From: Nitrospira sp. | GTDB lineage: Bacteria > Nitrospirota > Nitrospiria > Nitrospirales > Nitrospiraceae | Reading direction: 5' to 3' | DNA length: 57,177 bases | Assembly (NCBI GenBank): GCA_016788885.1 | Contig: JAEURX010000026.1 | Coordinates: 1 to 57,177 of the forward strand | Shown: piece after piece, positions 19,922-40,677 of the stretch | How the letters are laid out: every line of letters begins with the position of its first letter | How positions within the stretch are numbered: position 1 is the stretch's first letter | Made by a program: the position numbers and the translations under genes | Notes under the pieces: model-generated | Seen by the model: only the letters and a program-made list of their open reading frames with translations | What the model was told of the DNA's origin: nothing | Database searches by the model: none

Positions 19922-20977
19922 ATGCAACATCTGCTCGCTAAAGTCGCCAAGGGCCAAAAAACGTCCAAAGATCTGACCTGGGAAGAAGCCAAGCAGGCCA
20001 TGCGTTTGATGATTGAAGGGACAGCAACGTCGGCGCAGGTCGGTGCGTTCCTCACGGCTATGCGGTTCAAGTCCGAGTCCGTCACGGAGCTGGCGGCGTT
20101 TACCGCCACCGCGCGGCAATATGTCCCGCCCGTGCCGGTGCGTGCCGGGCTGGGGGTCGTGGATGTGCCGGTCTATGCCGGCAAGCGCGAAACGTTTCAC
20201 GCCATCGTGCCTGCTGCGATTGTCGCGGCTGCAGCCGGGGCGGTGTTGTTGCTCCATGGCGTGGACGGCCCGCCTGACCGACAGGGTGTGTCGTCGGTGT
20301 TGAAGCTGCTGGGCATTCCGGTTGATCTCACCGCCAAGCTGGTCGGGCTGGAATTGGAGAAGAAGGGCGTGGCCTACCTGGATCTGGCCCTGTATCACCC
20401 GCCCGTCAGCCGGTTTCTGGAAATGCGGCAGGAATTAGGAGTGCGCAACTTTTTCCACCCGGTGGCGCGGATGCTCAACCCTACTCGGGCCGGTTCCCAG
20501 GTGATCGGTTTGTCGCATCCGCCGTATTTTGAAAAGACGGTTGAGGCCTTGCGCATGCTGAGCTGTCCGCGTGCGCTGGTCATTCGCGGGGTCGAGGGCG
20601 ACCCGGAACTGTCGATCGGGAACACGACACGGCTGTTGGAGCTCAAGGGGGAGCGCATCACGCCCTTCACGTTCCAACCCAAGGATGCGGGACTGACGAT
20701 GGCGACGTTTCGGGAAATGGCCGGGTTCCCGGCCGAACAGCGTGACCGTGAGGCTGACCTGATCAAGCGAATCATCGCCAACGACATACAGGGCGGGCAA
20801 CGAGACTGGGTGTTGCTCAATGCGGCCATGCTGCTGTATGCGGCAGGCAAGGGGACCTCGATTGCGGGAAATCTGGCCACCGCTCGGCAGGCGCTCGAGT
20901 CCGGGCAGGCCAAGGCCAAACTGGCCGAGCTGAGTGCAGGCGCCGGAACGGTGCCCAAAGTCGGTCTTTCGGCATAA
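19922..20977 (+). CDS. TrpD-like (anthranilate phosphoribosyltransferase family) protein in the sulfur operon
   Basis: The 351-residue product has the fold of glycosyltransferase family 3: an N-terminal helical domain ([22 protein letters not shown]) and a phosphoribosyl-binding core. The TrpD Gly-rich loop region (GTGGD) is replaced by [10 protein letters not shown], and NxxG-type motifs are altered. It therefore belongs to the TrpD2/YbiB-like branch, whose members bind nucleic acids or have unknown activity, rather than to tryptophan synthesis. No other trp gene is nearby. It sits between cysH and cysD with short gaps. A role in sulfur assimilation is suggested only by that position. Confidence 0.8.
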
Positions 20978-20993
20978 TGAGAAGAGTGGAATT

Positions 20994-21791
20994 ATGAAGC
21001 ATCTACGTCAACTGGAAGACCAAAGCGTCTATATCCTTCGCGAAGCCTATAAGCATTTCAATCACCTCGCCATGCTGTGGTCGATGGGGAAGGATTCCAC
21101 CGTGCTGCTGTGGCTGGCCCGCAAGGCCTTTTTCGGGCATGTGCCGTTTCCGTTGTTGCATGTGGACACGAGCTACAAAATTCCGGCCATGATCGAGTAT
21201 CGCGACCGGATTGCCCGCGAATGGCGATTGAATCTGGTGGTGGGGCAGAATAAGGAAGCGCTGGCCGCCGGCATGAATCACACGCTGGGGCGAGACGTAT
21301 GCTGTACGGCCTTGAAGACCACGGCGATGAAGAATCTGGTCGAAGAAAAAGGGTACACCGGCATCATCCTCGGTGTGCGTGCGGATGAAGACAGTACCCG
21401 AGCCAAGGAACGGTACTTTTCGCCGCGAGACAAGCACGGGGATTGGGATTTTCGCGATCAGCCGCCGGAATTGTGGGACCAGTTCAAGACGACTTTTCCG
21501 CCGGGGACGCACATCCGCATTCATCCGCTCCTGGATTGGACCGAGATCAACATCTGGGAGTACATCAAGCACGAAAACATTCCCTTCATGGATCTGTACC
21601 TCGACCGTGGCGACGGGACCCGCTATCGCAGTCTGGGTTGCGCGCCCTGTACCACGCCGATCCGGTCGACGGCGAAGACGGTCGATGAGATCATCGATGA
21701 ACTCCGTGCGACCAATGTGGCGGAACGGGCCGGTCGCGCGCAGGATGCGGGGCGAGGCATGGAGATGCTTCGTAAGAAGGGATACATGTAA
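20994..21791 (+). CDS. cysD: Sulfate adenylyltransferase subunit 2
   Basis: CysD is the ATP-sulfurylase catalytic subunit that forms APS from ATP and sulfate, driven by the CysN GTPase. Family signatures include the N-type ATP-pyrophosphatase loop [48 protein letters not shown] and [11 protein letters not shown] start at the ATG at 20994, which begins the usual [18 protein letters not shown]. The frame opens earlier inside the previous gene. The 265-residue length is slightly short of the usual ~300. Confidence 0.95.
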
Positions 21792-21873
21792 GGCACGTGC
21801 GAACGCTGGAGTTCCGCGGGCACGCGCAGCCATGACCATTGAGCAACCGAAGGTGTGTTGAACGAGTAACGCT

Positions 21874-23721
21874 ATGACACAGCACGATCAACGTAAGTCG
21901 CAGGAAAGTTTGAATATCGTCATCGTGGGGCATGTCGACCATGGAAAATCCACGCTGGTGGGCCGGCTCTATGCCGATACCGGTTCGTTGCCTGAAGGCA
22001 AATTGGAAAAGGTGCAGGCGATCTGCCGCCAACAGGGCAAGGAATTCGAGTATGCGTTCCTCTTCGACGCCTTTCTGGAAGAGCAAGAGCAGGGGATTAC
22101 GATCGACACGGCCCGCACGTTTTTTATTTGGAACGAGCGGCAGTACATCATCATCGACGCCCCGGGGCATAAAGAGTTCCTGAAAAACATGATCTCGGGA
22201 GCGGCTCGCGCCGAAGCGGCCTTGTTGCTGATCGATGCCGTGGAAGGCGTGCGTGAGCAATCCAAGAAGCACGGGTATCTGCTGTCCCTGTTGGGCGTGA
22301 CGCAGTTTGCGGTCGTCGTCAACAAGATGGATCTGGTCGGTTATCGACAGGATGTGTTTGACGGCATCGAAAAAGAATATCGGGAGTTTCTGGGGCAGTT
22401 CCGGGCCGTGCCGCAGCAGATGATCCCGGTCAGTGCCAAGATGGGCGACAATATCGCGGTTCGCAGCCGCCACATGAATTGGTATCAGGGGCCCACGGTG
22501 CTGGACACACTCGCGCTCTTCAAGAAGGAGCAAGTGCGTTCCGAGCAACCCCTTCGATTCCCGTTGCAGGATGTGTACAAGTTCGATGCCCGGCGGATCT
22601 TGGCCGGCCGCATTACCGCCGGTCGGCTGAAGGTCGGTGACCACCTGGTGTTTTCTCCATCCAACAAAACGGCGATTGTGCAATCGATCGAGGGATTCAA
22701 CGTCGATCCGCCATCGAGTGAGGCCCAGGCCGGACAATCGGTCGGGATCACGCTCGACGAACAAATTTTTGTGGAGCGCGGAGAGATCGCGTCGCACCGG
22801 GATTCGGTGCCGCTGGTTTCTACCGTGGTCCGGGTGAACTTGTTCTGGATGGGACGGCGTCCGCTGGAGAAGGGACGCAAATACACCCTTCGATTGGCCA
22901 CGAGGGAGGTTGCCTGTGAGGTGGCCACAATCCATCGGATTATCGATACGGCAGATTTGGCCCAACTTCAGGAGAGCCAGTCGGTAGCCAAGAACCAGGT
23001 GGCTGAGGTGACTCTGCGGGTCAAGTCGCCGATCGCGTTCGACCTTTCGTCTTCTTTCGAATCGACCGGTCGGTTCGTGTTGGTGGATGAGTATGACATT
23101 TCCGGCGGCGGCATCATCACCGAATTGCTACACGATGAACAGGAGGGACTTCGCGAGGAGGCACGTCAGCGGGAATACGCCTGGCTCACGGGAGACGTCC
23201 GTCCAGAAGATCGAGCCCTGCAGTATGGGCACCGGGCCGCTATTGTGCTCTTCACCGGATCGGCCCAGACAGGCAAGACCTTTCTGGCCCGTCGAGTCGA
23301 GGCCCTGCTGGTGGCCGATAGCCGGCATGCCTATCTGTTGGAGGGCGAGAACCTCTTGCAGGGATTGGATGCGGATTTGTCGGCGGCCGATCCTTCGTTC
23401 GCCTCCGAGCGAGTGCGTCGGTACGGTGAGGTTGCCAGGCTGTTGATTGATACGGGGCTCATTGTGGTGTCGACCAGCAAAACGTTCGGCATCAACTATC
23501 AACGCATGGCAGACATGATTCGGACCCTGGTCCAACCTGCTCCAGTGATCGCGGTGCACATGAGTCGAGTCGGAGAAGAGCCGCCGCCGAATACGGATCT
23601 GCATTTTGCGGGACCACAGGATTTCGATGCAGCCGCCCGGCAGATTGTTGAGGAACTGAAGCGGAAGGGTGTGTTGATTGAGCCCTCCGGGACCAGGTCC
23701 ACGATCCAGTATTCCATCTGA
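21874..23721 (+). CDS. cysNC: Sulfate adenylyltransferase subunit 1 fused to a divergent APS kinase domain
   Basis: Residues 1-~430 are the CysN GTPase, with [15 protein letters not shown] (G1), DAPGHKEF (G3) and NKMDLVG (G4), followed by EF-Tu-like beta barrels. Residues ~450-615 resemble APS kinase CysC. It keeps a P-loop ([13 protein letters not shown]) and an [14 protein letters not shown] segment, where typical kinases have LDGDNVRHGL. The RxENIRR stretch is reduced to [10 protein letters not shown] and the usual ITAFISPY is VSTSKTFG. Because the nearby CysH is of the APS type, PAPS is not needed for reduction. The kinase domain may be weak, regulatory or used for sulfation. Confidence 0.9.
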
Positions 23722-23865: not shown

Positions 23866-24792
23866 ATGGCCATGGCTGCCGGCAAGGATCTCAAATCGAT
23901 CCTGACAAAACTCCAGTACTCCGACGACGCGAAAGTCGTGCAACAGATTACCGCGCAGATGAAGCAGGTGCAGGCTCGAATGGCCGGCATCAAGCGGAAG
24001 CTGGTGGTGATGAGCGGGAAAGGCGGAGTCGGAAAAAGCATGACCACCGTGAATCTCGCGTTGGCGTTCGCGCGACAGGGCGCGAAGGTCGGATTGCTCG
24101 ATGTGGATTTGAACGGGCCTTGCGTGCCGCGGATGATGGGCTTACATGGTCAATCACTGACCATGACCGCCGACGGGGCGTTGCCCCCGGTGGGGCCGCT
24201 CGGTATCAAGGTCGCTTCGATGGACTTCTTTCTCGGCGACGCCTCTCCTGTACGCTGGAAGGGACCGATGGATTTGAGTCCAGTCTGGCTGGGATTGATG
24301 GAAATGAACGTAATCCGTGAGTTCCTCGCCGACGTGGCGTGGGGCGAACTGGATTATCTGCTGGCCGACTTGCCGCCGGGGGCAGCGGCGGACAAACCGC
24401 CCGTCATTGCGGGGTTCATTCCCGATTTAGCCGGGGCCATTGTCGTGACGACACCGTCTGAGGTGGCGTCGGATGTGGTGCAGAAATCAGTCACCTACGC
24501 CCGGGACATGGGAATCCGGGTGCTGGGTATTGTGGAAAATATGAGCGAGTATCGGTGTCCTTCCTGCGGCGCCGAAAATGAGTTGTTCGAGGGAAATACC
24601 GAGGCCATGTGCGAGGTGCTGGACCTGCCGCTCCTCGGTCGTATTCCCTTCGATCGTACGCTCGCCAAGACATTCGACAAGGGGCAACCGCTTCTTGACC
24701 CCGACTATCCGACCATTCGGAAATATCAAGACATCGTTGGGCGGATTCAAGCGTTACTGGATTATAAAAAAGTCCTGGCGGAGAAGCTGTAG
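23866..24792 (+). CDS. mrp: Mrp/NBP35-family P-loop ATPase (Fe-S carrier)
   Basis: The 308-residue product has the deviant Walker A MSGKGGVGKSMTTVNLAL, the DVDLNGPCVPRMMG switch and DYLLADLPPGAAADK. VENMSEYRCPSCG carries the CxxC pair that holds a bridging 4Fe-4S cluster in ApbC/Mrp dimers. It lacks the N-terminal DUF59 domain of many bacterial Mrp proteins and has only a ~45-residue helical lead. The ATG at 23866 follows GAGGA. It is 25 bases from a zinc-ribbon/PCP_red gene, which suggests a joint role in cluster delivery (inference). Confidence 0.9.
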   Translation: MAMAAGKDLKSILTKLQYSDDAKVVQQITAQMKQVQARMAGIKRKLVVMSGKGGVGKSMTTVNLALAFARQGAKVGLLDVDLNGPCVPRMMGLHGQSLTMTADGALPPVGPLGIKVASMDFFLGDASPVRWKGPMDLSPVWLGLMEMNVIREFLADVAWGELDYLLADLPPGAAADKPPVIAGFIPDLAGAIVVTTPSEVASDVVQKSVTYARDMGIRVLGIVENMSEYRCPSCGAENELFEGNTEAMCEVLDLPLLGRIPFDRTLAKTFDKGQPLLDPDYPTIRKYQDIVGRIQALLDYKKVLAEKL

Positions 24793-24817: not shown

Positions 24818-25567
24818 ATGAAGTTCGTTTGCCTGAACTGCGAGACCTACATGACGTTTCAGAAGGTCGAAAAACCCGGTGAGGGCTCACTCGGTGTGTT
24901 CTTCGGCTGTCCATCCTGCGAAGCCAAGTTTTCGATGGTGACGAACCCCGGTGAGACCCAAATGGTCGCGTCCCTTGGCGTCAAGCTTGGAGGTCGAACA
25001 GAGACCGCAGAGCCATTCGAGATGACTCGGGGAACTCTGAAGGACGAGGCTCAGGCGGGTGCAGGTCAAATGGCGGCGTATCTCAATGAGAAGATCCAGG
25101 GTGGTCAACCGGCGACGGCAAAGCCTGCCGCCCCGGCGGCCAGCGGAGAGAAGACCAGCGGAGGATGCCCGTTCTCAGCCATGGTGGCTGAGATGGGGTT
25201 GACCTCGGGCGGGAAGCCGCAAAATGGAACCGGCGCCAGCGAATTTACCTGGACCCCGGATGCGACAGAAAAGCTGGAGCGTCTCCCGTCTTTTGTGAAG
25301 CCGATGGTGCAAAGTAGCGTGGAAGCCTTTGCGCGCAAGCATGGATACAAGACAATTACGCTGCAAGTCATGGATGACTCTAAGAACGATTCGCCAAACG
25401 GCATTGCCTGGACAAAGGATGCCGAGCAGCGCATGGATAATATCCCTGACTTTATCCGTCCTATGGCCAGACGGGAAATCGAGCGGATTGCCAAGGAGCG
25501 GGGCCTGGCCGAGATCACCGCGCAGGTGATGGACGAGGCCAAAGAGAAGTTTATGAAATTCATGTAG
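24818..25567 (+). CDS. Zinc-ribbon protein with two PCP_red-type domains
   Basis: The ATG at 24818 follows GAAGGGGG and gives 249 residues. The N-terminus has two CxxC pairs (C5-x2-C8, C31-x2-C34), a probable zinc ribbon. After a flexible Ala/Pro-rich linker come two copies of a ~45-residue helical unit: FTWTPDATEKLERLPSFVKP and IAWTKDAEQRMDNIPDFIRP, each continuing into E..A...G..xIT..V. This pattern matches the PCP_red domain found at the C-terminus of protochlorophyllide reductase subunit B. No chlorophyll genes are seen, so its role is unknown. It is coupled to the Mrp-type ATPase upstream and has a multi-repeat paralogue at 39682. Confidence 0.75.
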   Translation: MKFVCLNCETYMTFQKVEKPGEGSLGVFFGCPSCEAKFSMVTNPGETQMVASLGVKLGGRTETAEPFEMTRGTLKDEAQAGAGQMAAYLNEKIQGGQPATAKPAAPAASGEKTSGGCPFSAMVAEMGLTSGGKPQNGTGASEFTWTPDATEKLERLPSFVKPMVQSSVEAFARKHGYKTITLQVMDDSKNDSPNGIAWTKDAEQRMDNIPDFIRPMARREIERIAKERGLAEITAQVMDEAKEKFMKFM

Positions 25568-25576
25568 TGGGCATGC

Positions 25577-26425
25577 ATGCCTGAGACGAGTTTCTGGCCC
25601 ATCCGGATTGTCGGATGGGCCGTTCGATTCCTGCCGAAGTCGCTCCTCTCACCAAGACAGTGCGTGAGCCTGCTGCAATCAGGGCTCCTGCTGCTGGGTC
25701 TTTTTGTTCTGTTGCTCTCAGTCGTCGCGGTTTCCCATTCCACAGCGCAGTCTGCCGATCAGAGCTCGGCGCATGCATTGGCGGAGCAGGGGACGCATCA
25801 TAGTCACGCCTCTTCTTCCAACCACGAATGGGAAGGATCCCGCCAGGGTGTGGCCTATTCCGAGTTCAATCACCACCTTGCCGGCGTCTTTCTCCTGTTG
25901 ATCGGTCTCGGTGAGGTCCGGCAAGCACTGGGCTGGGCATCTCTGGCGTGGAGCAGGGTGTTGTTGCCGAGTGCGTTGATCGTTGCGGGGATGTTTCTCC
26001 TTATCTGGAGCGATCATGATGCGTGGCCCGTCGGGTCCATGACCATTGCGCAGACCTTTGGGGGAGACGATCCGGAAGTGCTTCAGCACAAGGTGTACGG
26101 GATCCTGGCGCTTGCCGTCGGTGCAGTGGAGTTTGCGCGACGGGTCGGCTGGTTCGATCATACCCTCTGGGCAGCACCGTTGCCGCTCTTTGCCATTGTG
26201 GGGGGGCTGATGTTGTTTGCTCACTCGCACGGGGACCATCCGGCCGCGCATAAAATTGCCTTGCATCATGCGATGATGGGGACGATGGCCATCACGGCTG
26301 GATCATCGAAGCTGATCTCCGGTTGGCGATCTCGGCAACTGATCGCGGAGCGGTCGTACTGGGAAATCGTGTGGGCCTGCCTTGTCGTTGCGATCGGGCT
26401 GCAGCTGCTGATCTACTCTGAATAA
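25577..26425 (+). CDS. Histidine-rich polytopic membrane protein
   Basis: The 282-residue product has about seven hydrophobic segments, the first near residues 33-53 (LLQSGLLLLGLFVLLLSVV). A periplasmic His/Ser-rich stretch follows (GTHHSHASSSNHEW). Paired histidines sit at helix ends (FNHHLAG, SDHDAWP, LQHKVYG, AHSHGDH, HKIALHHAM). Such His placement resembles copper- or heme-handling membrane proteins, but I recognise no family. The ATG at 25577 lacks a strong ribosome site, so the start is tentative. It is 9 bases from the PCP_red gene and probably cotranscribed with it. Confidence 0.65.
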   Translation: MPETSFWPIRIVGWAVRFLPKSLLSPRQCVSLLQSGLLLLGLFVLLLSVVAVSHSTAQSADQSSAHALAEQGTHHSHASSSNHEWEGSRQGVAYSEFNHHLAGVFLLLIGLGEVRQALGWASLAWSRVLLPSALIVAGMFLLIWSDHDAWPVGSMTIAQTFGGDDPEVLQHKVYGILALAVGAVEFARRVGWFDHTLWAAPLPLFAIVGGLMLFAHSHGDHPAAHKIALHHAMMGTMAITAGSSKLISGWRSRQLIAERSYWEIVWACLVVAIGLQLLIYSE

Positions 26426-39681: not shown

Positions 39682-40677
39682 GTGGCAGAGTCGTCAAATC
39701 TAGCAGCTCCTGAGGTCCGGTGGAGCGACGGCGCGCTCAAGCGAATGGAGCGTGCGCCCATGTTTTTGCGGGGAATGGTCCGTCGCTTGGCTGAGAAAAA
39801 GGCCCGAGAATTGGGCTACGCTGAAATCACCGAAGAGATTCTCGAACAGTTTAAGGGCCAAATGATGGGGACCATGGGCGGCGAAGGCGGCATGGCCGAG
39901 GCTGCCGACCAAATGGCCAAAGGTCAGTTGCCATGGACCGCTGCGGCGAAGGAGCGTCTGGCTGCGGTCCCGGAGTTTATGCGGGGAATGATCAAGCAGA
40001 TCGCCGATGAGATTGCCCGAAAGGGCGGTCACATGGAAGTGAACGTCGATTTGTTTGAAAAGGTCGAAGCCCTCGGCGAGATTCGCGAGCAAGAGGCGGC
40101 ACCCCTGGAATGGACCGAGGGGGCGTTGGCGTTGCTCCAGCAAAAAATCAAGGAGTCTCCGCCGATCGCGATGGATTTTGTGAGCGACATGATCAAGCAC
40201 GACACCGAGGAACTCGCGCGGGAAAAGGGCTTGACCAGGATTGATGAGGAAACCGCAGTACAACTTTGGGAAGCACCCCAGGAGCGTGTGGCCTGGAGCG
40301 ATGAAGCGTGGAAGCGGCTCCAAACCTCGCCGGATTTTGTTCGCAGTGGCATCCGTAAGGCAGCGGAACGCAGGGCCCGCAAGTTGGGGCTGAAAGAAGT
40401 CGATTCAGAACACCTGACCACGTTCCGCAATCAGGCGATGATGAAGGCAGTGAAGAGAATCAGGTCGTTTGGTTATAACGAGTTGACCTTCGATGCTTTC
40501 GACACCGCTCTGCAGAAAACGAAACGGCTGCAGGGAAACGATCAGGCGGAAAAGCGACTGCAAGAGATCCGATCGCATTTCAGCGATCCCGAGGTGAAGA
40601 AACCGGAAGGTGGTACCTTGGGCGCCGAACTCATGGGGCGGTTCAGAAAGTTTTTGAAGGGGGAAGGGTCGCTCTAG
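39682..40677 (+). CDS. Protein with about four tandem PCP_red-like domains
   Basis: The 331-residue soluble product starts at GTG 39682 (GGGAGTG upstream), 13 bases after the IHF/HU gene. The same helical unit occurs at VRWSDGALKRMERAPMFLRG, LPWTAAAKERLAAVPEFMRG, LEWTEGALALLQQKIKESPP (divergent) and VAWSDEAWKRLQTSPDFVRS. Each continues with an E..AR..G-type helix and an acidic turn. The unit is the PCP_red type also found at 24818, but without the zinc ribbon. The C-terminal ~90 residues are helical and charged. I know of no characterised function outside protochlorophyllide reductase. Confidence 0.75.
   Translation: MAESSNLAAPEVRWSDGALKRMERAPMFLRGMVRRLAEKKARELGYAEITEEILEQFKGQMMGTMGGEGGMAEAADQMAKGQLPWTAAAKERLAAVPEFMRGMIKQIADEIARKGGHMEVNVDLFEKVEALGEIREQEAAPLEWTEGALALLQQKIKESPPIAMDFVSDMIKHDTEELAREKGLTRIDEETAVQLWEAPQERVAWSDEAWKRLQTSPDFVRSGIRKAAERRARKLGLKEVDSEHLTTFRNQAMMKAVKRIRSFGYNELTFDAFDTALQKTKRLQGNDQAEKRLQEIRSHFSDPEVKKPEGGTLGAELMGRFRKFLKGEGSL

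Follow-up and report, generated by a model that had tools for sequence, protein, structure and literature searches.

A two-CxxC ribbon protein with tandem PCP_red domains is paired with a distinct Mrp-type ATPase in Nitrospirota and may belong to a heme or iron-sulfur assembly system

A Nitrospira genome encodes, directly behind an Mrp-type ATPase, a protein composed of a two-CxxC ribbon and two PCP_red units, and this protein may contribute to an as yet undescribed system for heme or iron-sulfur assembly. The explanation that we favor, although we place it somewhat short of an even chance, is that the ribbon-PCP_red protein connects a dedicated Fe-S carrier Mrp with clients that bear the PCP_red tag, within a system related to tetrapyrroles. 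The domain content and fold of the protein, the clade of its Mrp partner, the gene clusters and fusions in which PCP_red recurs and the lack of a detectable DPOR are shown here. BchB is a protochlorophyllide enzyme, and PCP_red is its tail. We found no paper in the open literature on PCP_red outside phototrophs, and none of the papers found assigns a function to the domain, although its structures have been solved. The window, a stretch of 57,177 nucleotides from Nitrospira sp., and two further loci of the same genome (L009 and L010) contain the following features:

Window 23866–24792, + strand: Mrp/NBP35-type P-loop ATPase of the PCP_red-linked clade, 308 aa (PF10609, 248.8 bits)
Window 24818–25567, + strand: ribbon-(PCP_red)x2 protein P0001, 249 aa
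Window 24818–24967, + strand: two-CxxC ribbon, residues 1–50, predicted beta, with invariant C5, C8, C31 and C34
Window 25163–25201, + strand: GCPFSA(M/V)VAxMGL island in the variable linker, with a Cys-Pro motif; candidate heme-regulatory-type site
Window 25250–25381, + strand: PCP_red unit 1, residues 145–188 (PF08369, 56.9 bits)
Window 25409–25543, + strand: PCP_red unit 2, residues 198–242 (PF08369, 68.9 bits)
Window 25577–26425, + strand: His-rich multi-TM membrane protein with 7 invariant His, a facultative neighbor in family f1 only
Window 39682–40677, + strand: four-PCP_red-unit protein (PCP4), third unit weak, located after rpsA and sppA (PF08369, 154.4 bits)
L009 6585–8678: USP-PCP, with two universal-stress domains, a rubredoxin-like domain and three PCP_red units
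L009 8675–10081: AhbD-like-PCP, a radical-SAM/SPASM protein with a PCP_red tail
L010 8169–8663: two-unit PCP_red protein, adjoining a DUF420 protein; a cytochrome bd-like oxidase subunit is encoded nearby

The original prediction described a ribbon followed by two copies of a PCP_red-like unit and proposed an HMM search against PF08369. This search confirmed the architecture: P0001 contains two PF08369 matches (119.7 bits together against a cut-off of 32.5, E=5e-35); the separate unit scores given above were taken from the genome-wide PF08369 search. The PCP_red HMM matched none of 1000 shuffled versions of P0001, and the two units are identical at 17 of 44 positions. The four ribbon cysteines were invariant in 45 orthologues from families f1–f5, f7, f13 and f21, and no ribbon family in Pfam exceeded its cut-off. 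The predicted coordinates, reading frame and spacing were exact, with 25 bases between the Mrp and PCP_red genes and 9 bases between the latter and the membrane protein gene. A promoter and terminator scan revealed nothing above chance.

In the AlphaFold2 model, the PCP_red part was predicted with moderate confidence (pLDDT ~75–80), and its best fold matches were 2L09 (TM 0.78 on target, 1.0 Å) and then 2KRU (0.71); the solved chains nearest by sequence are the C-termini of BchB/ChlB. Residues ~50–140 were modeled at low confidence as short helices. Within this region, the GCPFSA(M/V)VAxMGL island is 90% conserved, whereas the linker stretches on either side reach 58% and 53%, and CPFS was present in 42 of 42 two-unit orthologues. 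Single-PCP_red orthologues of f7, f13 and f21 are devoid of the Cys-Pro linker. P0001 thus shares the PCP_red domain with BchB/ChlB (PF08369; 2KRU, 2L09, 2YNM) by HMM, sequence and predicted fold. However, its units are arranged in tandem behind a ribbon, lack the nitrogenase-like DPOR domains, and occur in genomes without detectable BchB.

Alignment of 257 distinct PCP_red units revealed nearly invariant Trp, Pro, Phe, Ala and Gly residues. Cys and His account for only 0.1% and 0.9% of residues, respectively, and no conserved ligand was found, which rules out PCP_red as a metal site and therefore suggests helical docking or ligand-clamping modules. Accordingly, the earlier idea of a metallocluster or redox module does not hold for the PCP_red units themselves. 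The predicted non-phototroph setting was upheld, since none of 31 genomes contained BchB over the cut-off, and a remnant of DPOR is ruled out on the same ground. Among the matches listed for the window genome, the BchB model was covered only at positions ~440–511, the C-terminal PCP_red part, and no full-length BchB with nitrogenase-like domains was found in that genome. Outside Nitrospirota, PCP_red was matched only in Synechococcus among 14 control genomes, and a plasmid search retrieved bchB tails only.

The window Mrp contains a GKGGVGKSM Walker A motif and CPSC, and therefore the KGGVGKS P-loop and CPxC pair of the Mrp/ApbC/NBP35 carriers (PF10609). The linked Mrp is probably a [4Fe-4S] carrier. 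In contrast to the known carriers, it is the third paralogue of its genome, gave no match to the MIP18 domain, remains below the curated equivalog cut-offs (255.6 of 450 for MrpORP, 179.7 of 348 for ApbC), reads GKSM in the P-loop and adjoins the ribbon-PCP_red gene. GKSM is found in nearly all linked Mrps, whereas other Mrps have GKST. In a tree of 60 Mrp sequences, a branch with 100/99 support separated all 35 PCP_red-linked proteins from the other Mrps of the same genomes, including two from the window genome; the sequence from L035 is a long branch of less certain placement.

The conserved Mrp neighborhood that had been predicted across related genomes was recovered. Among orthologous loci with enough upstream DNA, Mrp was located immediately upstream on the same strand in 79 of 79 named and 17 of 20 further loci, or 96 of 99, with a median gap of 26 bp. 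Among the three exceptions, L029 contains an assembly gap, seen as a run of X that breaks the frame, and G027 and G105 retain the ribbon-PCP_red gene and lack the linked Mrp. These two genomes have two Mrp genes, compared to three in most of their order, indicating that the linked copy was lost. Pairs of Mrp and a downstream ribbon protein with only one PCP_red unit are also present outside the class, in different contexts in f13 (L031, L046) and f7 (L035); the f13 pair is surrounded by cytochrome c and bd-like oxidase genes. In f21 (L033, L042, L043), the ribbon-PCP_red gene lies without Mrp between genes for a B12-binding radical-SAM protein and an isopropylmalate dehydratase small subunit-like protein.

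The His-rich membrane protein had been proposed to form, with Mrp and the PCP_red protein, a single metallocluster or redox-partner delivery module. Its 9-bp spacing in the window and seven invariant His residues are in keeping with this proposal. However, the neighborhood survey ruled out a conserved trio: the membrane gene adjoins the pair in 7 of 20 and 55 of 73 testable loci, patchily, and only in f1, where it runs in the same direction. It was not found adjoining the pair in the remaining 13 of 20 and 17 of 73 loci, including the sampled f2–f5, f7 and f13 loci, and its model gave no significant fold match. The membrane protein is therefore a late or optional neighbor, and a single metal or cluster delivery unit of all three proteins is highly improbable. 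Mrp plus the ribbon may still act as a metallocluster or redox delivery module.

The original prediction identified the PCP_red gene at 24818–25567 and its pairing with Mrp, and missed PCP4, three more genes of the genome and the links to the heme pathway. The open frames of the window genome contain 12 PCP_red units in five genes; the units of PCP4 start at 39721, 39934, 40111 and 40294. All sampled class members have 9 to 12 units per genome, and at least one unit was found in 78 of 148 Nitrospirota genomes. Some of the genomes are incomplete, and gene calls are simple longest-frame calls. In L009, the AhbD-like-PCP gene overlaps the USP-PCP gene by 4 bases. In L024, the Mrp pair, PCP4, USP-PCP and AhbD-like-PCP are all encoded within ~10 kb, in L210 USP-PCP, AhbD-like-PCP and PCP4 are consecutive, and in L046 Mrp and the ribbon-PCP_red gene are followed by USP-PCP. 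In f3–f5, a heme-oxygenase-like diiron protein gene follows the ribbon-PCP_red gene, and PCP4 comes next in f3 and f4; L011 and L024 have the order Mrp, ribbon-PCP_red, Haem_oxygenas_2, PCP4. Its presence in the cluster only in f3–f5 rules out the heme-oxygenase-like protein as a general component. Families f1 and f2 encode the AhbD-like protein away from the Mrp pair; here we connect the two because of the shared domain and the clusters in sister families. The window PCP4 gene is located 14.1 kb downstream of the ribbon-PCP_red gene on the same strand, and a similar distance was seen in several f1 genomes.

AhbD converts Fe-coproporphyrin to heme b. The fused radical-SAM protein of the window genome is closest to NirJ2 and AhbD (~320 bits), and PCP_red-fused AhbD-like proteins score ~285–345 bits, short of the curated TIGR04545 cut-off of 500. 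Of the 30 fused frames listed, which include cases of one gene represented in two loci, 28 contained CX3CX2C and the full eight-Cys SPASM spacing of AhbD, the latter published previously (PMC10452713). HemY follows the AhbD-like-PCP protein in 3 of 3 f13 genomes, where this protein also carries a PCP4-like tail; in several other families, AhbD-like genes without the fusion are located close to HemY. The likeness to the AhbD heme b synthase (TIGR04545; PMC10452713) thus consists of the two cysteine patterns and, in the three f13 genomes, of adjoining HemY; the PCP_red tail and the sub-cut-off score are differences, and heme b synthase activity of the fused protein is putative. The fused protein gave the sole AhbD-like match over 300 bits in G012 and G006, two genomes in which HemY, HemQ, HemN and HemF were not found; an operon of the hemA/cobA-hemD/ahbC type was identified in G012.

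The final conversion of coproheme to heme b can be carried out by either AhbD or ChdC/HemQ (review PMC7242693). The window genome encodes a chlorite-dismutase-family protein of the coproheme-decarboxylase (ChdC) type (203 bits), and HemF is present in G119 and G131; the fused enzyme is therefore not the sole last-step candidate there. Together with the occurrence of true HemN in G131, G008, G049 and f14, these findings rule out the fused AhbD-like protein as the class-wide sole heme synthase. Two HemY copies were observed in G008 and G049 of f13, which suggests two parallel heme routes: one copy adjoins the PCP_red-fused AhbD-like gene, and the other is close to HemN. In f14 (L040, L041, L214), PCP_red is fused to a domain with the fold of coproheme decarboxylase and chlorite dismutase (PF06778). 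In contrast to that family, the three aligned fused domains have all lost the axial His; they are therefore probably not the enzyme, and a role as coproheme decarboxylase is unlikely. The f14 fusion is possibly a porphyrin sensor or carrier.

In the mechanism that we propose, Mrp would hold a cluster on its CPxC pair, and the ribbon protein would act as an adaptor built of a four-Cys ribbon, a flexible linker with the Cys-Pro motif and two helical PCP_red docking domains, linking Mrp to PCP_red-tagged clients. The pair would operate within the Nitrospirota PCP_red set, whose enzyme member would be the AhbD-type radical-SAM/SPASM protein with its PCP_red tail, and the multi-PCP_red proteins may keep enzymes, and perhaps porphyrin, together. 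We infer cluster delivery, docking through PCP_red and a tetrapyrrole as the common substrate. This reading is favored by the conservation of the pair, which extends to f13 and f7, by the single Mrp clade, and by the clusters, the HemY adjacency, the AhbD SPASM Cys motif and the enzyme gaps in G012 and G006. Counting against it are the sub-cut-off AhbD scores, the ChdC-type protein of the window genome, HemF in G119 and G131, the missing linked Mrp in G027 and G105, and the separate location of the genes in f1 and f2.

Three other explanations were weighed. PCP_red could serve general protein docking with no tetrapyrrole link, the Mrp pair being an extra Fe-S carrier for Nitrospirota respiratory proteins, as the joining of PCP_red to universal-stress-protein and rubredoxin-like domains and the oxidase surroundings of the f13 pair would allow. 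The repeated joining of PCP_red to AhbD-like, HemQ-fold and BchB proteins and the HemY adjacency argue against this explanation, which we consider rather doubtful. The fusions to AhbD-like and chlorite-dismutase-fold domains, and the presence of PCP_red otherwise in BchB, would also fit a tetrapyrrole chaperone, in which the ribbon-PCP_red protein itself binds heme or coproheme through the Cys-Pro linker and a hydrophobic clamp of PCP_red, with Mrp driving handover by ATP or loading Fe-S clusters elsewhere. Proteins that bind heme transiently often contain Cys-Pro motifs (PMC10377097), and the GCPFS island is invariant within a variable linker, although its Cys-Pro (C117) is suggestive only. 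However, the linker is missing from the single-PCP_red orthologues, no Cys or His is conserved in the PCP_red units, and the axial His is lost in the f14 fusions, so that we regard a chaperone as unlikely. By analogy with BchL and BchNB, Mrp might instead donate electrons to a PCP_red-bearing acceptor as an ATP-driven reductase. Mrp and BchL are both P-loop proteins, with a weak match of the window Mrp to TIGR01281 (BchL), and PCP_red is the BchB tail; yet the best families of this Mrp are the Mrp/ApbC carriers, and PCP_red occurs in the window genome without a BchB-like catalytic domain, making such a reductase very unlikely.

Extending the preferred adaptor reading to the phylum, we suggest, still more tentatively, that PCP_red in Nitrospirota could be the common tag of a chlorophyll-independent tetrapyrrole system, composed of an AhbD-type enzyme, scaffolds and an Mrp plus ribbon-PCP_red loader, that makes, repairs or routes heme. 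If so, the phototroph BchB would be one member of a wider family of PCP_red tetrapyrrole proteins, one Mrp/NBP35 subfamily would gain a specific client, and the system would bear on how heme is made and loaded in the cytochrome-heavy Nitrospira. The presence of PCP_red in chlorophyll-free nitrite oxidizers, fused to relatives of last-heme-step enzymes and accompanied by a private Mrp, provides a testable hint at the role of the domain.

A gene pair for CysD and a CysNC-like protein, the latter with a low-scoring APS-kinase part, is located at window positions 20967–23721, and the same pair was observed upstream of the Mrp pair in many f1 loci.
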